A stretch of 64,000 nucleotides of DNA from positions 1 to 64,000 of the forward strand of contig NZ_JABWGN010000010.1 in NCBI RefSeq assembly GCF_013363975.1, given 5' to 3'. The stretch is from Nonomuraea montanisoli (lineage in GTDB: Bacteria > Actinomycetota > Actinomycetes > Streptosporangiales > Streptosporangiaceae). Below the pieces are notes generated by a model. The model did no database searches, was not told where the DNA came from, and saw only the letters and a list, made by a program, of their open reading frames with translations. Below, piece by piece: positions 1 through 36,880 of the stretch (the first letter of the stretch is position 1; each line of letters starts with the position of its first letter). A program made the translations under genes and the position numbers.

Positions 1-13088
<13,088 letters not shown>

Positions 13089-13362
13089 CAATGCGCCACC
13101 TCAAGCCTCGGGCGCCATTCGCAATGGCGCCGCCGGTTTATTCGGACGGCCCGGAGAAATGCTCCGCGGCATTTGGTTCAGCGGCTCCCGCATAGTTGTC
13201 GATAAGACACTAAGGCGGCGCTCCATTTCGGGGACACGGTCGCCGACTGGCACCTTGTGGCCGCCATTAGTGGCCAGCGCCGGCCACCGCCCGCGGCCTT
13301 GACCCCGGGCGTTCGCGCACGCAATGAATTACGGACGGAGAAAACCGCCGGGAGGAGACCAC
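13089..13362. promoter_or_regulatory. Divergent promoter region, PKS / NRPS-part genes, with 9-bp dyad
   Basis: This 274-base gap separates the minus-strand PKS operon from the plus-strand condensation gene and must hold both promoters. It contains a perfect palindrome at 13111-13131 (ggcgccatt, three bases, then its complement), 22 bases upstream of the PKS start. That position would suit an operator or a 5' UTR hairpin. A smaller gtggcc/ggccac dyad lies near 13273-13290. I could not pick out convincing -35/-10 elements by eye. Confidence 0.5.
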
Positions 13363-14727: not shown

Positions 14728-14798
14728 CCGCCACGGCCCCGGCCCGTCCTCGTGACCGCCACGGCCACCTGGAGACACGGCCAAGCTTGGAGACACCT

Positions 14799-16325
14799 GT
14801 GGAACGCACCCTTCACCAGTGGTTCGCCGGCTCCGTGGCGCGCTTCGGCGACCGGGTGGCGCTGGAGGCGGGCGGCGCCCGCCACACCTACGCCGAGCTG
14901 GACGACCTGGCCGCCCGCCTGGCCGCGCGGATCCTCGGGGCCTGCCCCGGCCGGCGGCCTGCGCGGGTCGGCCTGTACGCGGCGCGCGACACCCTGGCCT
15001 ACGCCGGCTACCTGGCCGTCCAGCGGATCGGCGCCACGGCGGTCCCCCTCAACCCCGCCATGCCGCAGGCGCGCAACCTGGCCGTCGCCGGGGCCGCCGG
15101 CCTGGACGTCGTCCTGGCCGACGCCGCCCGCGCGCCGCTGCCGCCCTTCCCCTCGCCGGTGCTCGCCGTCGCTCTGGACGACCTCGGCGGCGACCGGGCG
15201 GAGCCGCTGACGCCGCCGGACGGGGTGGACGGCCTGGCCTACGTGCTGTTCACCTCGGGCTCGACGGGCACGCCCAAGGGCGTCCCGCTGCGTCACCGCT
15301 CGGTCAGCGCGTATCTGTCGCACGTCGTCCCCCGCTACGGGCTGGGCCCGGGCGACCGGACGTCACAGACGTTCGACCTGACCTTCGACCTGTCGGTGTT
15401 CGACATGTTCGCCACCTGGGGCGGCGGGGCCACGCTGGTCGTGCCGAGCCGGTACGACCTGCTCAAACCGGTGGCGTTCGTGGCCAGGGAGCGGCTGACG
15501 CACTGGTTCTCGGTGCCGTCGGTGGTCTCGCTCGCCCTGCGCCTGCGCCGGCTGGCCCCCGGCTCGATGCCGTCGCTGCGCTGGAGCCTGTTCTGCGGCG
15601 AGCCGCTGACGCTGCGGCAGGCCGACGCGTGGCGGGCGGCCGCTCCGGGCAGCGTGCTGGAGAACCTGTACGGGCCGACCGAGCTGACCATCTCCTGCAC
15701 CGAGTACCGCCTGCCCGCGGACCGGGCCCGCTGGCCGCGGACGCCCAACGGCACCGTGCCGATCGGCCTGCCGTACCCGGGGGTGCGGCACGCCGTGCTG
15801 GACGCGGACGGGCGGCCGGCGGCGGAGGGCGAGCTGTGCCTGCGCGGCGTCCAGCGCTTCCCCGGGTACGCGGACCCGGCGGTCAACGAGGGGCGTTTCG
15901 TCGCCTTCGACGGCGAGCGGGCCGTGCCCGCAGAGGCGGCCGGGGTCATGCCGGACGACCTGTGGTACCGCACCGGCGACCGGGTCGCGTGGCGCGACGG
16001 CGTCCTCGTCCACCTGGGACGGCTGGACCAGCAGGTCAAGGTGTCGGGGCACCGGGTGGAGCTGGGCGAGGTGGAGGCGGCCCTGCGCGCCAGGCCGGGC
16101 GTGGTCGAGGCGGTCGTGCTGGCGCTGCCCGGGGCGGACGGCGAGCTGGAGCTGGAGGCGGCCTGCACGGGCACGGACCTCGACCCGGTGGCGCTGGTCA
16201 AGGGCGTGGCGGAGGTCCTGCCGGGCTACATGGTGCCGCGCTCGGTGAGCGTGCTGGGCGAGCTGCCGCTGAACGCCAACGGCAAGGTGGACCGCCGCGC
16301 GCTGGCCACGACGCTGCGTACCTGA
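14799..16325 (+). CDS. Free-standing amino acid adenylation enzyme
   Basis: This 508-residue A-domain activates an amino acid as its adenylate and loads it on a carrier protein in trans, probably the one at 16488-16745. Core motifs are clear: the Ser/Thr/Gly P-loop (FTSGSTGTPKG, about 150-160), NLYGPTE (about 288), YRTGD, the hinge around GRLDQQVK (about 406) and a C-terminal GKVDRR with the catalytic Lys near 493. The GTG start at 14799 has GGAGA just upstream. A hand alignment to the GrsA Phe domain gives the code D-L-F-S-L-C-L-I-S-K. The Asp at position 235 indicates an alpha-amino acid. The code is nearest, among those I remember, to cysteine and other small-residue codes, but this is tentative. 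The gene follows the condensation gene in the same direction after 71 bases. Confidence 0.93.
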   Translation: MERTLHQWFAGSVARFGDRVALEAGGARHTYAELDDLAARLAARILGACPGRRPARVGLYAARDTLAYAGYLAVQRIGATAVPLNPAMPQARNLAVAGAAGLDVVLADAARAPLPPFPSPVLAVALDDLGGDRAEPLTPPDGVDGLAYVLFTSGSTGTPKGVPLRHRSVSAYLSHVVPRYGLGPGDRTSQTFDLTFDLSVFDMFATWGGGATLVVPSRYDLLKPVAFVARERLTHWFSVPSVVSLALRLRRLAPGSMPSLRWSLFCGEPLTLRQADAWRAAAPGSVLENLYGPTELTISCTEYRLPADRARWPRTPNGTVPIGLPYPGVRHAVLDADGRPAAEGELCLRGVQRFPGYADPAVNEGRFVAFDGERAVPAEAAGVMPDDLWYRTGDRVAWRDGVLVHLGRLDQQVKVSGHRVELGEVEAALRARPGVVEAVVLALPGADGELELEAACTGTDLDPVALVKGVAEVLPGYMVPRSVSVLGELPLNANGKVDRRALATTLRT

Positions 16326-16487: not shown

Positions 16488-16745
16488 TCATCGGACCGGC
16501 GGGAACGCCGGAAGCGTGACGAGCGCCTGCCAGAGCGAGCCGACCGTCGCGAACGTCGACTCGTCGAGGAGGTCGTCGGGCAGCTCGACCGCGTAGCCGT
16601 TCTCGATGTCGACCAGCAGCCGCACGACGCCCATCGAGTCGAGGCCGAGACCGGCGAGCTCGTCCCGCGCGGACAGCTCCGCCGAGTCCGCGTACGGCAG
16701 GTGCGCGCGCAGAAGGCTCTGGAACTGGCTCGGAATTTCAGACAT
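16488..16745 (-). CDS. Free-standing acyl/peptidyl carrier protein
   Basis: This 85-residue carrier protein has the phosphopantetheine site LGLDSMG, with the modified Ser at residue 37. Helix I and helix III segments are of normal length for a PCP/ACP. An in-frame start would be possible at 16814, but the ATG at 16745 gives the standard carrier length and has GGCGG six bases upstream. It is the likely partner of the adenylation protein at 14799-16325 and the two single C-domain proteins, since no other free-standing carrier lies in this block. It is transcribed alone, convergent to the adenylation gene across a hairpin terminator. Confidence 0.92.
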   Translation of the reverse strand: MSEIPSQFQSLLRAHLPYADSAELSARDELAGLGLDSMGVVRLLVDIENGYAVELPDDLLDESTFATVGSLWQALVTLPAFPPVR

Positions 16746-16948
16746 CGTCATCCGCCAATCTGCCAGAAAAATCCATTCGTACAAAGACTCCGGGAATGGC
16801 GCGGCCCCGGTCAAGGCGGCCGGGAAAGAGCACGCTGGCAGGTTGTCGCACGTCCAAGCTGCCAGCGCGGCCCGCTTGTCACGGTCCCGGGAAAAGCCAA
16901 TCCTCGATTTATTCGGTAGTCCGACAATCGCCGGCGGTGGAGGCCGAG
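16746..16948. promoter_or_regulatory. Divergent intergenic region, carrier gene / condensation operon
   Basis: These 203 bases should carry the promoters of the carrier gene (minus) and the condensation-unknown-desulfurase operon (plus). A loose ctggcag / ctgccag inverted repeat is present around 16838-16868. I see no clear sigma-factor boxes. Confidence 0.35.
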
Positions 16949-18694
16949 TTGTCCGCTGTGAAAACCGCGAACCTGTGCTGGGGGCAGCGCTACATCTGGT
17001 TGCGCGTCCACCAGCTCCCGCCCGGACACCAGCACGAGACGCACATCGTCCTCACCCTCGATGTGCCGGCCGGTGTCACGCCCGCCCACTGCCAGGCGAT
17101 GCTCACCCACCTGGTACGGCGGCACGAGACGCTGCGCACCACGTACCACCTGGACGCCGGCGAGCCCGGCACCGGGCCTGTGCAGCGGATCCACCCGCCG
17201 GGCGCCCTGAAGCTGCGTGAGGTCACCGTGGAGCGGGACGGCACGCCCGCGCCCGCCGAGGTGGTCGAGGACCTGAGCACCCGGCCGTTCGATCTGGCCG
17301 GCGAGTGGCCGATCCGCGCGGCCGTCATCACCTCCGGTGGCGTGGCCAAGCGGGTCGTGCTGGTGCTCAACCACCTGGCCGTGGACGTGTGGACGCTCGG
17401 GGAGCTGAAGCGGGAGCTGCGCACGCAGGGCGCCGCCCTGGCCGCCCGCCGCCCCGCCACGGTCATGCCGGTGCGCCACCAGCCGTCCGACCTGGCCCGC
17501 CACGAGACGTCGGCCGACGCGACGGTGGTCGCCGCCCGGTCGATCGCGTACTGGCAGGAGGAGGTCGCCGCGCTGCCCACGGACCCCTACGCCGCCCGCC
17601 GCCGAGAAAACGGGCCGGACGGGCCAGACGGGCTGGGCGGCCCCGGCGGACCGGGCGGGCCGCCGGCCCGGCACGCGTCGCTGACCTCCCCCGCCCTGCT
17701 GGACGCGACCCGCCGGATCGCCGCCCGGCACGGCGTGTGGCCGTCGCTGGTCCACCTGGCCGCCCACACCGCGCTGACCGCCGCCTACACCGGCCTGGAG
17801 TCGGTGAGCCACCTGTCCTTCGTCAGCAACCGCGAGTCGCACCCGTACCCGGACGTCCTGACCTGCATGTTCTCGCCGACGCTGGCGCGCGTGGACTGCT
17901 CCGGCGACCCCACGTTCGGCGACCTGCTCGGCCGGGTGGCCGCCGCCTTCGCGCGCGCCAAGGAGCACTCCTACCTGCCGTACGACGAGGTGGTCGAGCT
18001 GGTGTCCCGCGAGGGGTCGCGGCGCGGCCGTGAGGTGCGGCTCGGGCCGGAGGTCAACTTCATCAAGCAGCGCTCCAAGGACTACGGGGGCCGGCGGACC
18101 GCCTTCACCTGGCATCCGGTCCCGGAGGCGTGGGCGCACGCCGGGTCCGAGGCGTACCTGCGGGTGGACGAGTGGCGCGACGCGGTCGCCGTGTCCCTCC
18201 AGGCGGCCTCGGCGGTGATGGACGCGGCGGCCGTGGAGGCGTTCCTGCGCGGCCACGAGGCCCTGATCCTCGCCTGCGACGCCGACCCGGAGGGCGGCGG
18301 CCCGCGCCTCGGCGACGTGGCCCGGCTGGCCGCCCTGCCCGACCCGCCCGCGCGCCCCGCACGCACCGGCCGCCCCATGACCGGTCCGCTGCCCGCGTGG
18401 GACGGCGGCGTCGGTGAGGAGGCCGCCCGGACCCTCTCCGCCGCCGTCCGGCTCGTCAACGGGCTGCCCCGTCTCGACCTCTCCGACAGCTACACCATCG
18501 CCGGAGGCCGCGCCCTGCGCATCCCCCGGGTGCTGGCCGAGCTCCGCGAGCGCGGCTGGGAGGGCCTGACCCTCCGGCAGCTCGCCGGGCCGGTCCCGCT
18601 GGGCGTCCTCGCCGGCCGGCTCGTCCCGACCCGGCCGCTCGCGGACCACCACCGTCCATCAGATCTCATGCGACTCGGAGTGAAGCCATCATGA
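16949..18694 (+). CDS. Second free-standing condensation-domain protein
   Basis: This is a 581-residue single C-domain protein. It shows RHETLRT near the N-terminus and a catalytic motif N141-H142-L-A-V-D146, again keeping the second His and Asp. A Gly/Pro-rich insertion (about 17615-17670) interrupts the core, and about 120 residues follow the usual C-domain end, with no recognisable A or carrier domain there. The start is uncertain: the TTG at 16949 has GGTGGAGG at good spacing; the GTGs at 16934 and 16958 are alternatives. The stop overlaps the next ATG (ATGA, 18691), so it is co-translated with the unknown protein and probably with the cysteine desulfurase. It may form or acylate an amide, ester or thioester on the carrier protein. 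The acceptor is unknown. Confidence 0.85.
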   Translation: MSAVKTANLCWGQRYIWLRVHQLPPGHQHETHIVLTLDVPAGVTPAHCQAMLTHLVRRHETLRTTYHLDAGEPGTGPVQRIHPPGALKLREVTVERDGTPAPAEVVEDLSTRPFDLAGEWPIRAAVITSGGVAKRVVLVLNHLAVDVWTLGELKRELRTQGAALAARRPATVMPVRHQPSDLARHETSADATVVAARSIAYWQEEVAALPTDPYAARRRENGPDGPDGLGGPGGPGGPPARHASLTSPALLDATRRIAARHGVWPSLVHLAAHTALTAAYTGLESVSHLSFVSNRESHPYPDVLTCMFSPTLARVDCSGDPTFGDLLGRVAAAFARAKEHSYLPYDEVVELVSREGSRRGREVRLGPEVNFIKQRSKDYGGRRTAFTWHPVPEAWAHAGSEAYLRVDEWRDAVAVSLQAASAVMDAAAVEAFLRGHEALILACDADPEGGGPRLGDVARLAALPDPPARPARTGRPMTGPLPAWDGGVGEEAARTLSAAVRLVNGLPRLDLSDSYTIAGGRALRIPRVLAELRERGWEGLTLRQLAGPVPLGVLAGRLVPTRPLADHHRPSDLMRLGVKPS

Positions 18695-19593
18695 ACCACG
18701 CCGTCACCGACCGAGTGACCAAGACCCACCGGCTGGTCGCCTCGGAGCAGGAGCTCCGCGACGCGATCGCCCGCGAGCTGCCCGCCTCCGGCCTCGGCGA
18801 CCTGGTCGTCATGGGCGGCCACTTCATGCTGTTCGAGGACGAGGCGACCGGCCGGCTCGTGCCGGGCGTCGTCGAGGAGCAGAAGGACGAGACCATGCGC
18901 CGCCGCGTCGCCGGCCGCGTCGGCATCTTCCCCGGCTACACGTGGGAGCTGTCGCTCGACCTGCTCGGTGAGTACGCCGAGGCGGGCGTCTCCGGCCGGC
19001 TGCTCCTGCTGATCAACGACTGGCAGTACGTGCCGGCCCACGACCGCCCGGCCGGCGAGCTGCGGGCCGAGTTCTTCGAGGGCTTCACCACGCTGCCCAC
19101 CTCGTACGAGAAGGCGCTGTGCGACTACGGCCTGCCGGCCGAGCTGGTGCTGCCGAGCCGCAAGCACCAGCTCGCGTTCCCCGAGACGTGGCTGAAGTAC
19201 CGCTTCCAGAAGGCCGCCGACCGCTTCGTCAAGCAGGGCCTGCTGGAGAAGCGCTACCTCGACTCCGGCGATGACACGGGGCGGCGCGACGCCGAGGTGG
19301 CGTTCGTGGACGCCGACGGCAACTACCGCACGCTGATCAGTTGCGGCATCACCGGCTGCGCGGGCGAGATCACCGAGATGGTGTCGGAGGTGCACAAGGC
19401 CGGCTACCGCAACCTGCTGATCTTCGCGCCGGGCGAGTGCCTGATGCCGGTCCAGACCGGCGTGGACATCGCGCTCAACCTGTACGGCCTGCCGGACATG
19501 CGCGTGGTGATCGCCGACCCGGGCGGCAGCGGCGAGATGTCCACCGACGACATCTACGCCAAGCTCGTCACCGTCAGCACCCTCAGGAGCTGA
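18691..19593 (+). CDS. Unrecognised 300-residue cysteine-containing protein
   Basis: I do not recognise this family. The protein is soluble, without a signal peptide or membrane segment. It has two parts: an N-terminal half with a Gly/His patch (VVMGGHF) and a charged C-terminal half with the pattern C218-G-I-T-G-C223, then a hydrophobic strand ending in G-E-C250, plus an isolated C144. The closely spaced cysteines could form a redox pair, hold a metal or carry a persulfide. Its ATG overlaps the stop of the condensation gene and it ends four bases before the start of a cysteine desulfurase, so the three proteins should be made together. From context alone I infer a role as sulfur acceptor, or as an enzyme working on a carrier-bound substrate. 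No function can be assigned. Confidence 0.85.
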   Translation: MNHAVTDRVTKTHRLVASEQELRDAIARELPASGLGDLVVMGGHFMLFEDEATGRLVPGVVEEQKDETMRRRVAGRVGIFPGYTWELSLDLLGEYAEAGVSGRLLLLINDWQYVPAHDRPAGELRAEFFEGFTTLPTSYEKALCDYGLPAELVLPSRKHQLAFPETWLKYRFQKAADRFVKQGLLEKRYLDSGDDTGRRDAEVAFVDADGNYRTLISCGITGCAGEITEMVSEVHKAGYRNLLIFAPGECLMPVQTGVDIALNLYGLPDMRVVIADPGGSGEMSTDDIYAKLVTVSTLRS

Positions 19594-19597
19594 CGCC

Positions 19598-20767
19598 ATG
19601 AAGGTCATCTACCTGGACGCCTGCGCCACCACCCGCGTCGACGACGAGGTGCTGGACGCGATGCTGCCGTACCTGCGCGAGGAGTTCGGCAACCCGTCGT
19701 CGCCGCACGTGCTGGGCAAGCGGGCCCGCCGGGCCGTGGACGCGGCGGCCGAGTCGGTGGCTCGGCTGATCGGGGCCGACCCGGACGCGGTGCTGTTCAC
19801 CTCCGGCGCGACCGAGAGCAACAACATCGCGCTGCTCGGCGCGTTCGGCCACGAGGACAGGGCGCCGGTCAACGGGGTGTTCTGCCCGACCGACCACAAG
19901 TCGTCGCTGGCGGTCGGCCGCGCCCTCGCGGCGCGCGGCGTGGACGCGCGGACGGTGCGGGTGGGCCGGGACGGCCAGGTGGACCTGGTCCACCTCGACG
20001 GGCTGCTCGACCTGCACACGCGGGTGGCCACGGCCGCCTGGGTGAACAGCGAGATCGGCACCGTGCAGCCGGTCCACGCGATGGCCGCGCTCTGCCACGA
20101 CGTGGGCGCGCTGCTGCACGTGGACGCGGCGCAGGCGGCCGGGCGGGTGCCGATCGACGTGCGGGGGGCGGAGATCGACCTGCTGTCGCTGTCGGCGCAC
20201 AAGCTGCGCGGCCCGAAGGGCGTCGGCGCCCTGTACGTGCGGCCGGAGATCCGGCACCGGCTGCGGCCGGTCATGTTCGGCGGCGGGCAGTACGAGCTGC
20301 GCAGCGGCACCGTCCCGACGCACCTGGTGGTGGGCTTGGGCAAGGCGGCGGAGCTGGCGCTGGCGCGGGCCGAGGCGGACCTGCGGCGGGTGCGCGAGCT
20401 GCGCGCGACGGCGCTGGACATCCTCGCCGCCGGCATCCCGGGCGTGCGCCTGAACGGCGACCCGCGGGGCGGCGTGCCGCACGTGCTCAACGTCGTCCTG
20501 CCGGGGGTACGCGGCGAGAGCCTGGTCTCCAGCCTGACCACGGTGGCGCTGTCCACCGGGTCGGCCTGCAACTCCGGCTCGCAGGAGCCCTCGTACGTGC
20601 TGACCGCCATCGGGGTGGACGCGGAGGACGCCAACAGCTCCGTGCGGATCTGCCTGGACCCGCGGATGTCGTTCGAGGACCTGGTGACCGGCGTGGAGAC
20701 GGTCGTCGAGCGCGCCCGGGGGCTGGCCGGGGTGGCCGTCGCGATGCGCGGCCACCAGGTCGTCTGA
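19598..20767 (+). CDS. Cysteine desulfurase (NifS/IscS-like, PLP-dependent)
   Basis: This 389-residue class V aminotransferase-fold enzyme takes sulfur from L-cysteine to give alanine and a protein persulfide. The N-terminus YLDACATT, the SGATESNN cofactor loop, the PLP lysine K202 in LSAHKLRGPKG and the loop cysteine C324 in TGSACNSGS are all present, so it looks catalytically complete. The ATG at 19598 is preceded by AGGAGCTGA, which also contains the stop of the unknown protein. No Isc/Suf scaffold, ThiI or ThiS-like partner is in the window, and its place in a condensation-protein operon argues for a biosynthetic rather than a housekeeping role. It ends 23 bases from the convergent regulator gene. 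Confidence 0.93.
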   Translation: MKVIYLDACATTRVDDEVLDAMLPYLREEFGNPSSPHVLGKRARRAVDAAAESVARLIGADPDAVLFTSGATESNNIALLGAFGHEDRAPVNGVFCPTDHKSSLAVGRALAARGVDARTVRVGRDGQVDLVHLDGLLDLHTRVATAAWVNSEIGTVQPVHAMAALCHDVGALLHVDAAQAAGRVPIDVRGAEIDLLSLSAHKLRGPKGVGALYVRPEIRHRLRPVMFGGGQYELRSGTVPTHLVVGLGKAAELALARAEADLRRVRELRATALDILAAGIPGVRLNGDPRGGVPHVLNVVLPGVRGESLVSSLTTVALSTGSACNSGSQEPSYVLTAIGVDAEDANSSVRICLDPRMSFEDLVTGVETVVERARGLAGVAVAMRGHQVV

Positions 20768-20790: not shown

Positions 20791-21792
20791 TCAGCCGGCG
20801 TTGCGCAGGAAGCTCCTGGCCGCCGCCACCCCCGCCTGGAACCTGCTGGTGGCGTCCAGGTCGCGCATCAGCGTGGCGATGTGCCGGCGGCAGCTCCGCA
20901 CCGACATGCCGAGCTTCCTGGCCACGACCTCGTCGGTGTAGCCCTTGGCCATCAGCGCGGCGATGGACTGCTGGAGGTCGTCGGCCACGTCGGCGTAGCC
21001 GAACTCGATGCCCTCCAGGGGCGTGGCCATCTCCCACAGGTGGTTGAACAGGTCGAGGAAGAACTGCGCGATGCCGTGGTCGCGGACCCGCGCGACGTTC
21101 GCCTCCTCGCCGCCCGAGCCGAACATGACGACCAGCGAGCGGTCGAACACCACCGCCGAGCGCGGGATGTGGCTCAGCGTGTAGACGACCGCGCCGGCGT
21201 CGGTGAGCCGCTTCATCCGCATGCGGGTGGACACGTCGCCGCGGTTGCGGTGCTGGCAGATGATGCGCACCACCACTCCCCTGGCCAGCAGGGCGAGGAA
21301 CGTCTCCGACAGGTCGCCGGTCACGCCGCCGCTCGCCTGCAGCACCAGCACCTCGTCGCGGCAGGCGTCGCTGGCGGTCTTCAGGAAGCCGCGCACCTCC
21401 ATGGAGCCCACCAGGTAGTCCACGGCGCGCGGGCCCGTGGACGCCTCCGCCGCGATGTAGTCGGGCTGGAAGGTGCCGATCCGCTCCCGGATCTGGTCGA
21501 TCAGCTCGCGCCGGTGGTAGATCTCCCGCTCGACGGACGACACCAGCGAGGCGGCGGCCAGCTCCGGGTCCACGGGTACGAACCGCAGGCCCGCGCTGTC
21601 GTCCACCCGCAGCAGCCGGCTCTCCACCAGGTGCTCCACCGCCGCGCTCACCTCGCGCACGGCCAGGCCGAGGTCCTCGGCGGCCGCCTCGACCGACTCG
21701 ATCGCGCCCTTGCGGGAGGCGTAGCGGTACACGTCTGTCACATGGTCGCCGCCGGCCGGCGTACGTCCTGGGAACAGTGCCGTCATGGTCAT
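20791..21792 (-). CDS. LuxR-type regulator with TrmB-like N-terminus
   Basis: This 333-residue regulator has a winged-helix-like N-terminal segment (about 20-75), a central domain (about 110-260) resembling the PLD-like sensor part of TrmB-type proteins, and a C-terminal LuxR-type HTH (about 275-325) with KGYTDEVVARKLGMS. The ATG at 21792 is preceded by GGAGG at seven bases, which favours it over the ATG two codons downstream. It is the last gene of the large minus-strand array, 23 bases after rmlA, and may act on the cluster in response to a small ligand. It lacks a receiver domain. Confidence 0.85.
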   Translation of the reverse strand: MTMTALFPGRTPAGGDHVTDVYRYASRKGAIESVEAAAEDLGLAVREVSAAVEHLVESRLLRVDDSAGLRFVPVDPELAAASLVSSVEREIYHRRELIDQIRERIGTFQPDYIAAEASTGPRAVDYLVGSMEVRGFLKTASDACRDEVLVLQASGGVTGDLSETFLALLARGVVVRIICQHRNRGDVSTRMRMKRLTDAGAVVYTLSHIPRSAVVFDRSLVVMFGSGGEEANVARVRDHGIAQFFLDLFNHLWEMATPLEGIEFGYADVADDLQQSIAALMAKGYTDEVVARKLGMSVRSCRRHIATLMRDLDATSRFQAGVAAARSFLRNAG

Positions 21793-26967: not shown

Positions 26968-26971
<4 letters not shown>

Positions 26972-28005
26972 CGGCGCCACCCCCCGGAGGCGTCGTCCCG
27001 GTCCAGCAGCTCGGCCGGGTCGCCCTTGCCGGCCACGTTCCCGGCGCAGGTCTGCCGGGTCAGGTCGGCGCCGAGCTGGAAGTCCAGCGGGGTGTTGCCG
27101 GTGATCCGGTTCCACAGGACGTGGTTGTCCAGGGCGTCGTCGCCGCCCCAGTCCTTGGAGGAGCCGATGACGAAGCCGGCGCCCATGACCGACTCGCCGC
27201 TCGGGTGGTTGTCGTGGATGTGGTTGTCCACGACGGCGACCCGGTGCGTCCCGATGAGCGCGAGGCCGACGCCGGAGATGGGCGGCCCGGCCGCGCCCAG
27301 CCCGTCGGGCTCGGCCCCGGCGGCCAGGCCGTTGCCGTGCAGGTCGTTGCCCGCCACCAGGCAGTCCCGGACGCCGCCCGCGGGCTCGCCCTCGTACACC
27401 TGGTTGAGCAGGAGCATGCCGATCGCGTTGCCGTGGCAGGCGTTGCGCACCACCCGGGCGCCGGAGGAGTTGTCGACGAAGACGCCGAAGGCGTTGGCGG
27501 ACGTCTCGTTGCCGGCGATCAGGCCGTCCGAGTCGGGGCAGAAGCTGAGCGCGACGCCGCCGTACTGGCTGCCGGAGGCGCGGCAGCCGCTCACCTCGCA
27601 GCCGCTGGACTCGCGCAGGTAGACGCCCCAGACGGCGTTGCCGCGGGCCTCCACGTCGCGCACGCTCACCCCGGCGACGGAGTGGGCGTAGATCCCGGCG
27701 CCGGAGAAGCCGGTCACGGTCAGCGCCTCGATCCTGACGTTCGCGACGGCGTCGCCGTGGACGGTGATGCCGCTGACGACGCCCTCGGAGGCGTCGTGCA
27801 GCCGGGGCACGTCGGCCGCGGCTCCGTCGCCGGGGGTCAGCACGGTCCGGCCGGGGCCGGCGCCGGTCAGCGACACGCCGCCGTGCCGGATCCAGACGCT
27901 CTCGGTGTACGTGCCCTCCGTCAGCACGATGCTCGCTCCGGGACCGGCCTCGTCCAGCGCCCGCTGGATCGACTCCCCCGGTCGTACCGTCTTCACCTGG
28001 GACAT
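26968..28005 (-). CDS. Right-handed parallel beta-helix protein (NosD/pectate-lyase-like fold)
   Basis: This 345-residue protein consists of repeated short-strand rungs with recurring Gly-Asn and Asn-Xaa-Ile patterns (for example VSGCRASGS and VAGNDLHGNG), typical of a right-handed beta-helix. There is no signal peptide, so it is probably cytoplasmic, unlike most pectinase-type members. The ATG at 28005 has AAGGAAAG in front and overlaps the end of the AcpS gene by 13 bases. Its stop overlaps the exporter ATPase. The family includes lyases, epimerases and carbohydrate-binding proteins. In a polyketide array it might shape or cyclise an intermediate or bind a sugar. That is inference only. Confidence 0.88.
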
Positions 28006-28523
28006 CGGGCACTTTCCTTCCTGTCGACGTACACGATCGCCAGCGCCACGAACAGCCCGCCGTCGCTCCCCCATCGGGCCGCCCCGGCGACGGCCGCGTC
28101 TCCCGGGGGGCGTAGCCGCTTCAGGGCGGCGTCGTGGGAGGCGCCGTGGAGCGCGTACGCGGCGCTCCCGTCCAGCACCGCCCCGGTGGAGGCGGCCAGC
28201 TCGGCGGCGGCCTCGTCCAGCAGGCGGCCCGCCCACGCGGGCGGAGCCGCGGTCACCGCCTCGAAGTCGTGCCAGCCGAACCCCGGCGCCCGGCCGCCGA
28301 CCGCCTTGATCAGGCACTCCTTGACGGAGAACGCCGTCGCCTCGGAGGTGAGCCCGCGCTCGGCCTCGGTCGTGACGTGCCGGGCGAACGCCGCACCGCC
28401 CCGCTCGACGGCCCGTGCCAGCCGCGCCGCCTCGACGACGTCCACGCCGAGGAGGACGGCGGGCCCGCCGGCGTCGTCCGGCGTGACAGGGAAGGCCGCC
28501 ACGGCGGCGGTGCCGGTGCTCAT
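27993..28523 (-). CDS. acpS: AcpS-type holo-ACP synthase, apparently intact
   Basis: This 176-residue 4'-phosphopantetheinyl transferase has the metal-binding GVDVVE motif near its N-terminus and the FSVKE motif that supplies the second acidic ligand, followed by a hydrophobic C-terminal strand. It is longer than housekeeping AcpS (about 120-130 residues) because of an N-terminal extension and an insertion rich in Ala. The ATG at 28523 overlaps the stop of the hydrolase gene. It probably activates the free-standing ACP at 38497 and perhaps the carrier at 16488. A degenerate relative is encoded 1.7 kb upstream. Confidence 0.85.
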   Translation of the reverse strand: MSTGTAAVAAFPVTPDDAGGPAVLLGVDVVEAARLARAVERGGAAFARHVTTEAERGLTSEATAFSVKECLIKAVGGRAPGFGWHDFEAVTAAPPAWAGRLLDEAAAELAASTGAVLDGSAAYALHGASHDAALKRLRPPGDAAVAGAARWGSDGGLFVALAIVYVDRKESARCPR

Positions 28524-33744: not shown

Positions 33745-34574
33745 GTCCCCCACCTCTCCCAGTAGGTGCGTTCCTTGGCGCTGTAGCGCTCTGCGGGGCG
33801 GAAGTCGGTGCCCACGGTGTACGCGACGGGGATCATGCACACCTGGGTCACCCCGGTGGGGATGCCGAGCATCCGCGCGACCTGCCGCTCGTGCGGTACG
33901 TGCAGGCAGGTGATCGTGCTGCCGAGCCCGCGGCTGCGCAGCGCGAGCTGGAAGGACCAGATGGCCGGGAAGATCGAGCCGTAGAAGATGCTGGCGCGGG
34001 TCTCGCCGTGCCGCACCAGGTGGCCCGGATCCTCGGGCACCTTGTCGGCCATGCGCCTGCTCCACGCCTCGTTGATGGCCGTGATGTCCGGCGGGCGGCC
34101 GAGGACGCACGGGATGACGAGGATCGGGACCCGCGCGATCGTCTCGGTGAGCGCCAGCGCGGAGGCGTAGTTGCGGCGCGCCCCGGCGTCGTTGCGGCGA
34201 CGGCCGGCGTTGGTCCACATGTCGTTGCGGTGGAACGTCCAGGAGGACTGGATCATCTCGGCCAGCTCCTGCTTGACGGCGGCGTCGCTGATGACGAGCC
34301 ACCGCCAGTTCTGGTGGTTGTTGGCCGTGGGCGCCTGGACGGCCACCTCCAGCGCCTCCTCCACCACCTCGCGGGGCACGGGCCGCTCGACGTCGAGGCG
34401 GCGGCGCACGGAGCGTGTGGTGGTCAGCAGCCGGTCGGTCTCGGCGACGTCGAACGGCGTGGCGCCCGACGCCGCCGGCACGGTGCCCGGCGCTCCCGGC
34501 GTGGCGCCCGGCGCTCTCGGCGTGGCGCCCGGCGCTCTCGGCGTGGTGCTCGCCGCACGCGCCCGGGTGCTCAC
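33741..34574 (-). CDS. Nitroreductase-family FMN oxidoreductase with repeat N-terminus
   Basis: The fold is clear from RSVRR (about 55), APTANNHQNWRW (about 82) and the C-terminal GIPTGVTQ segment. The family uses FMN for nitro, quinone or enone reduction, flavin reduction, or dehydrogenation. The first 40 residues are a seven-residue Ala-Pro-Gly repeat, encoded by a 21-bp period at 34501, 34522 and 34543, and are not part of the enzyme core. The GTG at 34574 overlaps the KS-CLF stop. An internal start after the repeat cannot be excluded. Confidence 0.88.
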   Translation of the reverse strand: MSTRARAASTTPRAPGATPRAPGATPGAPGTVPAASGATPFDVAETDRLLTTTRSVRRRLDVERPVPREVVEEALEVAVQAPTANNHQNWRWLVISDAAVKQELAEMIQSSWTFHRNDMWTNAGRRRNDAGARRNYASALALTETIARVPILVIPCVLGRPPDITAINEAWSRRMADKVPEDPGHLVRHGETRASIFYGSIFPAIWSFQLALRSRGLGSTITCLHVPHERQVARMLGIPTGVTQVCMIPVAYTVGTDFRPAERYSAKERTYWERWGT

Positions 34575-36880
34575 AGCGCCCCCAGGAGGACGGCGCCGCG
34601 CACCGAGCCGGGCGCGGCGGTGAGCGCGAGCGCCCGCTCCACGGGCCCGTCGAGGCCGGGTTTGGTCACGTACGCGGCGAGGTCGCCGGCGCGCGGGGCG
34701 GCGAGGCCGGTCAGCGCGGGCGCGACGCCGTCGCGGACGGCGAGCGCGGCGAGGGCGATGTTGAGCGCGCCGGAGGCGGCCTGGCAGTCACCGGCCAGCG
34801 CGGTGGAGGCGGTCAGCCGCGCGCCGGGCGCGCCGGCGAGCACCGCCGCTGCCTCAGCGCCGTCCCCGGCCGTCCCGTCCGCCGCGCCGACCACCAGCCC
34901 GGCGACCGGACCGGACGCGCCGCCGGAGACGCGGGCGATGCTGCGTGCCACGGCGTCGGCGTCGGCGTCGGCGTCAGAGCCGGCGTGGCCGCTCGCGTGG
35001 CCCGTGTCCAGCACCACGGCGTACGGCCTGCCGTCGCGGGCGGCGCAGTGCTCGGCCGACTCGACGACGAACGCCACCGCCGCCGACCCGCGCACCGCCC
35101 CTCCGGCCCCGGAGTCGTACGGCGACGGCACCGGAAGGTCGTCGGTGTCCAGGGCGGCCGTGCCGGTCGTCTCGTCGGCGGCCACCACGAGCACCACCTC
35201 CGCCTTGCCCGACCGGATGAGCTCCAGGGCGCAGTCCAGCGCGATGGAGGCCGAGGCGCCGCCGTTGCAGATGGTGGTGGTCGGCCCGCGCAGTCCCAGC
35301 GTCTGGCAGACGGCGCCGCCGGTGGCGTTGAGCACGACGTTGGAGAAGCTGAGCACGGCCGGCTTGTTCGGGTTGACCGCGATGCTCTCGTCGAAGCCGC
35401 CGGTGCTCTCGGCCGATCCGGCGCCGGTGGCGAAGATCAGCGCGACGTCGTCGAGGTCCTTGCGCGGCAGCTTCAGCCCCGCGTCCTCCCAGGCCAGCCG
35501 GGAGGCGGCGATGGCCAGGCGCGACAGGTGGTTCATGTGCCGCCACAGCGAGCGCGGCGCGAACGTCCGTCCCTCCAGCGACGGGGCCCACCCGGCGCCG
35601 TGCCGCCCGGCCAGGACGGCCTCGGTGAGCTCGGCGACGCCGGTGCCGGCCCCGGTGACGGGCCCGAGCCCGGTGATCACCGCTTCGCGGCGGGGCAGCT
35701 CCTCGTACGGCCGGGGCTCGCCGGGCGTGGTCAGCACCAGGGAGACGTTGTTGCCGCCGAAGGCGTAGTTGTTGGACACGACGGTGCCGATGGGCATCGG
35801 CCTGGCCACGTTGGGCACGAAGTCCAGGTCGCCGGCCCGGCCCTGGCCGTCCTCGTCGAAGCCGATGGTGGGCGGGGCCGTCGCGTGCCGCAGCGCCAGC
35901 ACGCTCGCCACCGCCTCGACGGCTCCGGCGGCGCCCAGCGTGTGGCCGACGAACGACTTGATGCTGCTGGTCGGCACCTGGCCGGCCCGCTCGCCGAAGA
36001 CCAGGCGCATGACCTTGGCCTCCATGGCGTCGTTGGCGGGGGTGCCGGTGCCGTGCCCGCTGACGTACTGGACGTCGCCGGGCGTGAGACCGGCGTCGGC
36101 GAGCGCCCGCCGCACGGCGCTGGCGCCGCCGCGTCCGGTGGGGTCGGGGGCGGTCGCGTGGTAGGCGTCGGCCGACAGGCCGTAGCCCGCGACCTCGGCC
36201 AGCGGGACCGCGCCCCGGGCCAGCGCCAGTTCCAGCGGTTCCAGCAGCAGGAACGCGGCGCCCTCGCCGAGGTTCAGGCCGTCGGAGTGGCTGTAGGGGC
36301 GGCACGGGCCGGTGCTGAGCGCCTGGAGTCCGGCGAAGCCCGCGTACGTGCCGAACAGCAGCGGGTCCACCCCGCCGGCGAGGACGGCGTCGGCCTCACC
36401 GGTGAGGATCTTGTCCTTGGCCAGGCCGACGGCGTTGCCCCCGGCGGCGCAGGCGGTGGACACCAGGATGCGCGGCCCGCGCAGGCCGAGCCGCTCGGCG
36501 ACCACGTCCTGGGTGCGGTGCATCGGCTGGTACCGGCCGGCCGCGTCGGGTGTGGCCTGGCACTTGCCGAGGATGATCCCGAACCGCTCGGCCCCCACCC
36601 CGGAGGCCGTCAGACCGGCCATCTCGACCGCCTGGCGGGCCGCGACGAGCGCGAGCCGGGCCGTGCGGTCGAGGGCGGCGTCGGAGCCGGGGAGCTGACC
36701 GGTGATCCACTCGTCGGGCACCTGGCCCGCGTGCCGGGCCGTGAACACGGCGAACGCCTCGTCCTCGACCGGCGTGAGTCCGCCCTGACCTGTGGTGAGC
36801 CGCTGCCAGAACTCGGCTGGGTCGCGGCCGGCCGCGCAGATGATGCCCAGGCCGGTGACGACGACGGGCCGCAGCGCCAT
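34571..36880 (-). CDS. Fused ketosynthase and chain-length-factor-like protein
   Basis: Residues about 1-405 are a beta-ketoacyl synthase with C144 in STACAAGG and the two histidine motifs GHGTGT and GHTLGAAG, so it should be active. Residues about 415-769 are a second KS fold with the nucleophile lost: by alignment the active Cys position is Gly (near residue 541, next to ICNGG), and the His motifs read GAADGT and a degenerate TALAGD. That is the pattern of a chain-length factor. Type II KS and CLF are normally separate chains; here they are one 769-residue protein. GAAGGAGA precedes the ATG at 36880. The DADADA run near 34965 is low-complexity sequence. With FabG, FabZ, ACP and AT it could build a reduced or polyene chain. 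Confidence 0.9.
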   Translation of the reverse strand: MALRPVVVTGLGIICAAGRDPAEFWQRLTTGQGGLTPVEDEAFAVFTARHAGQVPDEWITGQLPGSDAALDRTARLALVAARQAVEMAGLTASGVGAERFGIILGKCQATPDAAGRYQPMHRTQDVVAERLGLRGPRILVSTACAAGGNAVGLAKDKILTGEADAVLAGGVDPLLFGTYAGFAGLQALSTGPCRPYSHSDGLNLGEGAAFLLLEPLELALARGAVPLAEVAGYGLSADAYHATAPDPTGRGGASAVRRALADAGLTPGDVQYVSGHGTGTPANDAMEAKVMRLVFGERAGQVPTSSIKSFVGHTLGAAGAVEAVASVLALRHATAPPTIGFDEDGQGRAGDLDFVPNVARPMPIGTVVSNNYAFGGNNVSLVLTTPGEPRPYEELPRREAVITGLGPVTGAGTGVAELTEAVLAGRHGAGWAPSLEGRTFAPRSLWRHMNHLSRLAIAASRLAWEDAGLKLPRKDLDDVALIFATGAGSAESTGGFDESIAVNPNKPAVLSFSNVVLNATGGAVCQTLGLRGPTTTICNGGASASIALDCALELIRSGKAEVVLVVAADETTGTAALDTDDLPVPSPYDSGAGGAVRGSAAVAFVVESAEHCAARDGRPYAVVLDTGHASGHAGSDADADADAVARSIARVSGGASGPVAGLVVGAADGTAGDGAEAAAVLAGAPGARLTASTALAGDCQAASGALNIALAALAVRDGVAPALTGLAAPRAGDLAAYVTKPGLDGPVERALALTAAPGSVRGAVLLGAL

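Follow-up and report, generated by a model that had tools for sequence, protein, structure and literature searches.

Few sulfur acceptors are known for the cysteine desulfurases of natural-product pathways, and most of these have been borrowed from cofactor or tRNA thiolation. In thiotetronate (Tu 3010 and thiolactomycin) biosynthesis a cysteine desulfurase (StuS or TlmS) and an acceptor protein (the thiouridylase-like StuJ or TlmJ) feed sulfur to a product made by a polyketide synthase (PKS) and a nonribosomal peptide synthetase (NRPS); StuJ resembles a tRNA 2-thiouridylase, is encoded at a separate locus and has homologs in most sequenced Streptomyces (PMC5518548). The paulomycin cluster also contains a desulfurase, Pau31, which together with the ThiF-like Pau30 is assigned to isothiocyanate formation, with cysteine proposed as the sulfur source (PMC4425429). 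Here we describe an operon in the first 64 kb of contig NZ_JABWGN010000010.1 of Nonomuraea montanisoli (the window), in which a NifS/IscS-type cysteine desulfurase is paired with a 300-residue protein designated UNK (unknown protein). No published description of the UNK-desulfurase pair was found in the open-access PubMed Central literature searched; the initial annotation of this DNA likewise knew of no description of the sulfur-incorporation route that it proposed. Paulomycin was rejected as an instance of the same system: its proposed acceptor is ThiF-like and the portion of the gene table available lists no UNK-like product (PMC4425429).

UNK and the desulfurase form a conserved gene pair

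The operon consists of three genes on the forward strand: C2 (16949..18694), encoding a stand-alone condensation-like protein, UNK (18691..19593) and the dedicated IscS/NifS-type desulfurase (19598..20767). The UNK ATG overlaps the C2 stop codon as ATGA (18691-18694), and four bases (CGCC) separate the UNK TGA from the desulfurase ATG at 19598, which confirms the tight three-gene arrangement first read from the sequence. This gene order was kept in all 15 loci (the window included) found among 54 genomes of the genus, one of the C2 genes being cut by a contig end. Within the family 29 of 341 genomes carry UNK, and the UNK proteins of the nearest named relatives, which are Nonomuraea, are 98% identical to that of the window.

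A scan of one genome per species (84,980 species), which detects only genomes having one of two short peptide patterns, gave 37 loci in named genomes, 26 in the Streptosporangiaceae and 11 elsewhere (Paenibacillus, Pseudomonas, Halalkalibacter, Xenorhabdus, Caldalkalibacillus, Pandoraea, Brucella and a Verrucomicrobia metagenome-assembled genome). The desulfurase gene was the direct neighbor of UNK in 36 of the 37 loci, the exception (L065) being a contig that ends after about the first 160 UNK residues. The gap between the two genes had a median of 10 bases and a range of -4 to 121 in 37 loci (35 of the scan plus the window and a Priestia plasmid). Two Priestia plasmids carry UNK, and the one opened has the pair. 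In two loci of the Verrucomicrobia phylum (L066 and L169) the order is reversed, desulfurase then UNK with a 4-base overlap, and a sodium symporter gene lies slightly upstream (by Pfam for L066, by eye for L169). The pair is kept across four phyla. C2 was present in all 26 Streptosporangiaceae loci, always preceding UNK, and in none of the 11 loci elsewhere when the DNA around those loci was inspected. Hence the conserved unit is UNK plus the desulfurase, the link between them is well supported by gene context, and C2 looks like a lineage-specific addition. The initial annotation was right to single out UNK together with the desulfurase, and the pairing withstands two of the refuting conditions set there, as UNK homologs do co-occur with desulfurases and UNK belongs to no well-understood family; its inclusion of the C protein in the mechanism is not supported. 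The family is rare outside the Streptosporangiaceae, being found in 2 of 274, 2 of 387, 3 of 398 and 1 of 396 sampled genomes (the starting genome counted each time); the other match in the 274-genome sample was the weak L104, and two of those in the 398-genome sample were weak partial matches in open reading frames (ORFs) unlike UNK.

The desulfurase matches PF00266 (9e-68), and its best NCBIfam matches are the IscS, NifS and DndA models, all below their cut-offs. K202 in SAHK, the Lys for pyridoxal 5'-phosphate (PLP), and C324 in STGSAC, the persulfide Cys loop, are both present, in agreement with the complete NifS-type enzyme recognized at the outset, and both are kept in every linked desulfurase inspected. 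By its PLP Lys and SSGSAC-type loop Cys the protein fits group I (IscS/NifS), and the corresponding activity is predicted. The desulfurase tree had 40 rows: 20 desulfurases drawn from the best-scoring loci found in 11 pair-carrying genomes, together with those of the window, of the Priestia plasmid and of 18 among the 36 loci. Nineteen linked desulfurases (all but L066) and L142 formed one clade, apart from the rest, with 100/100 support; L142 also adjoins UNK. In both the UNK and the desulfurase trees Xenorhabdus groups with Bacillota and Actinomycetota, not with other Pseudomonadota, at forks of moderate support (90/75 and 91/89 in one tree, 93/97 in the other). The UNK and desulfurase distances were correlated (r 0.80 for 11 chosen loci, with 0 of 2000 permutations as high, and 0.90 over all 21), and part of this correlation would be expected merely from common descent of the loci. 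Judged from their sequences, UNK and the desulfurase seem to cross phyla together.

Sequence and predicted fold of UNK

The Cys residues of UNK are exactly those given by the initial annotation (144, 218, 223 and 250), but C144 is not conserved. C223 and C250 are invariant in the UNK alignment and C218 is nearly so, whereas H44 is the only invariant His. The H44 codon (18820..18822, +) falls inside predicted strand 37-50, in GGH; the invariant Asn109-Asp110-Trp111-Gln112 (19015..19026, +) stands at the end of predicted strand 101-109; C218-x4-C223 (19342..19359, +) lies between predicted strand 212-217 and helix 223-236; and C250 (19438..19440, +) is in the first turn of predicted helix 248-264. 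The GGSGE that follows strand 271-276 is among the most conserved residues. The Verrucomicrobia UNK proteins have a shifted spacing of the first Cys pair.

UNK has a single Pfam match, LPD16 (PF18830), at 28.7 bits against a cut-off of 27, and thus the first impression of a protein without a family was nearly right, failing only at this marginal match. The homolog of Pseudomonas S31 scores 39.7 and that of Priestia is annotated as 'LPD16 domain-containing'; the distant homologs L066 and L104 gave no LPD16 match at E 0.01. The source on LPD16 places this domain in the polyvalent proteins of conjugative elements and, in its available part, gives no function for it (PMC5512222), whereas UNK is a stand-alone enzyme-like protein. 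The only label of UNK is thus a domain without known function. Assignment to a named functional family was rejected, as NCBIfam gave no match at E 0.1 and a sequence search of the PDB none at E 1. A PDB profile search gave only short chance-like matches, the best of which was malic enzyme (E 0.028, 51 profile positions).

The AlphaFold model of UNK made with 26 diverse sequences had a predicted local distance difference test score (pLDDT) of 86 and a predicted template-modeling score (pTM) of 0.87, and that made with 15 close sequences had values of 77 and 0.81. In VIA, which compares only the candidates of Foldseek, the best match of the model was arginyl-tRNA synthetase (ArgRS, 4oby) with Z 14.7 over 200 residues and a root-mean-square deviation of 3.2; other matches were cysteinyl-tRNA synthetase (CysRS, Z 12.0) and MshC (Z 11.7), and all 50 VIA matches listed for the predicted model are class I synthetases or MshC. 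ArgRS was also the top Foldseek match (E 1.5e-4), and a D-W pair follows the same strand in ArgRS and UNK (by eye). The predicted model has the fold of the class I aminoacyl-tRNA synthetase catalytic (HUP/Rossmann) domain. There is no anticodon-binding domain in UNK: the synthetase match reaches about residue 292 of the 300. The pattern SGGxDS marks the N-terminal PP-loop of the PP-loop thiolases (MnmA, TtuA, TtcA and ThiI). It was present in none of the 26 aligned UNK sequences, and the fold matches listed contain no PP-ATPase fold, PP-loop thiolase or cyclodipeptide synthase. UNK differs from StuJ in its predicted class I synthetase-type fold, in lacking SGGxDS and in being encoded inside the cluster.

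In E. coli CysRS the zinc that holds the cysteine thiol has as ligands C28, C209, H234 and E238. The Cys and His sites of UNK are possibly at roughly equivalent places, and the resemblance of the model to CysRS suggests a sulfur-binding metal site in UNK. No desulfurase partner is known for MshC. Pseudomonas sp. S31 (G348) has a second full-length cysteinyl-tRNA synthetase gene (L121) besides L111, on a contig other than that of its UNK locus.

Neighbors of the pair in other lineages

Outside the Streptosporangiaceae the pair is frequently accompanied by Ddl-like (D-Ala-D-Ala-ligase-like) ligases, EamA exporters, a methyltransferase or quorum-sensing genes. The Pseudomonas TH31 locus contains LuxR, LuxI, UNK, desulfurase, Ddl-like ligase and EamA genes. 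The Pandoraea and Brucella loci have UNK, desulfurase, Ddl-like ligase and EamA genes plus those of a radical SAM protein (TIGR04434) and a cystathionine-lyase-like PLP enzyme (by Pfam in Brucella, by eye in Pandoraea). Two Ddl-like ligase genes accompany radical SAM and, by eye, PLP genes in Pseudomonas S31, where no EamA was seen, and the P. guariconensis locus, in which UNK is cut, has a Ddl-like ligase, radical SAM and PLP genes (by eye). In Priestia the pair is followed by a Ddl-like ligase, ComQXPA (ComQ, ComP and ComA being assigned from generic product names) and then carrier and amino acid:ACP ligase genes. The pair is accompanied by EamA in Paenibacillus and Halalkalibacter and by a methyltransferase in Xenorhabdus. 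C2 was found in none of the 11 loci outside the Streptosporangiaceae, where Ddl-like ligases, EamA or a methyltransferase are the usual neighbors; this setting points to a substrate or product that is a free amino acid rather than to the carrier-bound group put forward in the initial annotation. The pair stays constant in surroundings that supply peptide-forming partners (Ddl-like ligases or C2) and small-solute exporters, an arrangement suggestive of a building block that resembles an amino acid and is made by the pair.

The TIGR04434 radical SAM protein (rSAM_Pput_1520) was found in the UNK/desulfurase loci L061, L062, L063 and L065; in L063 its gene is seemingly split in two ORFs (7172-8308 and 8378-8794).

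The biosynthetic cluster around the operon

C2 matches PF00668 (2.8e-18), and its start is uncertain (TTG at 16949 or GTG at 16937). The motif NHLA[VA]D, of the NHxxxD type, was present in 26 of 26 rows. The protein is a condensation domain, as initially described, but not a bare one, since 23 of the 26 rows have a carrier-like tail without Ser (GG[RQG][AV]L).

The operon sits inside a biosynthetic cluster that contains a modular type I PKS (3858..13091, -), the first ketosynthase of which has Gln at the nucleophile position (DTGQ, KSQ-type loading), a second stand-alone condensation domain protein, C1 (13324..14727, +), kept in related clusters, a stand-alone adenylation (A) protein with a start that is not resolved (14736..16325, +) and a free-standing acyl or peptidyl carrier protein (ACP/PCP; 16488..16814, -). 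The specificity motifs of the A protein, read by eye, gave no firm substrate. The cluster also has a type II-like set, composed of a protein with two ketosynthases (KS-KS) and a ketoreductase (KR) recognized by Pfam plus a dehydratase (DH) and an ACP recognized by eye, together with deoxyamino-sugar genes and ATP-binding cassette transporters (by eye). Parts of the cluster recur in the 13 other loci of the genus, of 14, that were retrieved at length, and in the nearest relative methoxymalonyl-ACP-type genes follow the PKS block (by eye). In the one variant cluster examined (L023, 5203-8012) the A protein is replaced, on the opposite strand, by an AMP ligase (TIGR03098) and a PLP decarboxylase (TIGR03099), a pair of the exosortase-A-associated type. 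Weak A-protein matches on the minus strand were also seen in Herbidospora and Acrocarpospora loci. Forazoline, an Actinomadura thioketone, was considered and set aside; the nearest named relatives of the window are Nonomuraea.

Three other parts of the window were noted. The KS-KS protein (769 residues, 34571-36880, -) is built of two ketoacyl-synthase halves, with the active-site Cys missing from the second, and from its sequence looks like a fused ketosynthase-chain length factor; its gene lies near those of the DH, the ACP, the KR and a GcvT-like protein, and its NCBIfam matches include the cispentacin subunit AmcF, below cut-off. At 26968-28523 (-) a right-handed beta-helix (NosD-like) protein lies beside an AcpS-like phosphopantetheinyl transferase (by eye), and the two were called as a single frame in some relatives (L019 and L020). 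Directly downstream of the desulfurase is a regulator gene (20791-21780, -) with weak PLD-like and LuxR-type helix-turn-helix matches, which was found in all 12 fetched related loci that reach that place.

Discussion

We judge the chances to be about even that UNK and the desulfurase are a dedicated sulfur-transfer pair that gives a sulfur-modified amino acid, a proposal in which we infer the transfer, the substrate and the product. L-cysteine would supply the sulfur, which the desulfurase, as its conserved catalytic residues suggest, would hold as a Cys324 persulfide before passing it to UNK, where C218, C223, C250 and perhaps H44 may form the receiving site, acting either as a persulfide relay or as a metal site like the thiolate-holding site of CysRS. 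A putative amino-acid pocket of UNK, marked by the invariant NDWQ, would bind the amino acid and add the sulfur. In Pseudomonas, Priestia, Pandoraea and Brucella the Ddl-like enzyme may then couple the product, with EamA as the likely exporter in several, whereas in Nonomuraea and its relatives C2 may couple the sulfur amino acid to the polyketide/NRPS product. The sulfur-modified amino acid of the pair probably serves secreted natural products.

Several findings weigh against this proposal. UNK lacks HIGH (H-x-G-H in 0 of 26 aligned sequences) and also KMSKS (K[MFIL][SA]K in 1 of 26, near residue 180 and not after the last strand, where GGSGE occupies the place), and these absences make ATP use by UNK doubtful. 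Homology of UNK to ArgRS or CysRS by profile was rejected, as nothing was found (hhalign probability <1% versus 11 ArgRS and 14 CysRS/MshC-like sequences), and thus the synthetase likeness is one of predicted fold only; the structure searches envisaged in the initial annotation gave a class I synthetase-like fold but no profile similarity. UNK differs from ArgRS, its best structural match, in having no anticodon domain, HIGH or profile similarity, and from MshC and CysRS in having no HIGH, KMSKS or profile similarity. The Foldseek list also contains unrelated folds at weaker scores (SPARDA, creatininase and DegV), the creatininase matches being short (about 60 residues). H44 lies inside a predicted strand and not at its end, and this makes the metal site less credible. 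In the tree L066, the Verrucomicrobia desulfurase, is placed apart from the linked clade, and the very distant homolog L104 (a partial match at E 2e-4), which is located by a symporter, has no desulfurase match in 20 kb. The neighbors of the pair vary between loci, and by eye no such ligase or exporter was recognized in Caldalkalibacillus.

Moreover, desulfurases serve iron-sulfur (Fe-S) assembly too, and the sulfur released may thus never enter the product. UNK might be an Fe-S enzyme with the desulfurase as its private cluster assembler, C218, C223 and C250 holding a [4Fe-4S] cluster with an open iron; its reaction could be a dehydration, a radical step or a thiolation, and cysteine sulfur might be absent from the product. 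The three conserved Cys by strand ends of the predicted fold are consistent with such a cluster, the dedicated NifS-type desulfurase recalls the NifS of nitrogenase, and three-Cys clusters occur in HUP-fold thiolases such as TtuA and TtcA. However, Fe-S enzymes seldom need a private desulfurase, and no IscU, SufU, SufBCD or NifU was recognized among the neighbors scanned or eyed, no systematic search having been made; we consider this explanation unlikely. Distinctly unlikely is the original proposal, in which an acyl or aminoacyl thioester on a carrier receives its sulfur through UNK, with C2 as an integral component that joins the product to the polyketide. The Streptosporangiaceae loci would favor it, given the invariable position of C2 before UNK, the overlap of the two genes in the window and the free carrier and A protein beside C2, but C2 was found in none of the other 11 loci. 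Outside the Streptosporangiaceae, moreover, no carrier gene was recognized beside the pair except in Priestia. Carriers may nevertheless be present there, as short ORFs were unlisted and a crude motif scan, which found no carrier, overlooked the one annotated in Priestia as well.

The missing HIGH and KMSKS can also be taken to mean that UNK handles no sulfur, because non-catalytic synthetase paralogs lack them as well. UNK, as a dead synthetase, would then bind an amino acid and serve in regulation or as a scaffold, while C-S lyase chemistry of the desulfurase-like enzyme alone would yield the building block. We regard this as very unlikely: many invariant UNK residues follow strands, which are the active-site places in such folds, and the persulfide Cys loop is intact in the desulfurase.

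Returning to the sulfur-transfer pair, a wider proposal, which we hold tentatively and with more doubt than conviction, is that a class I synthetase-fold enzyme without ATP signatures and its own desulfurase constitute a general cross-phylum module for putting sulfur onto an amino acid. The product of such a module could be a sulfur amino acid not yet described, such as a thiocarboxylate, a thioamide or a persulfide amino acid. Proteobacteria and bacilli would build it into dipeptides under quorum control, and Streptosporangiaceae into a family of polyketide antibiotics. The smallest loci, composed of UNK, the desulfurase and an exporter, are directly testable as three genes. If the proposal is true, an acceptor of synthetase fold that has its own desulfurase would represent a new route for sulfur into small molecules, the pair could guide genome mining for amino-acid antibiotics that contain sulfur, and LPD16, a Pfam domain without an assigned function, would acquire one.

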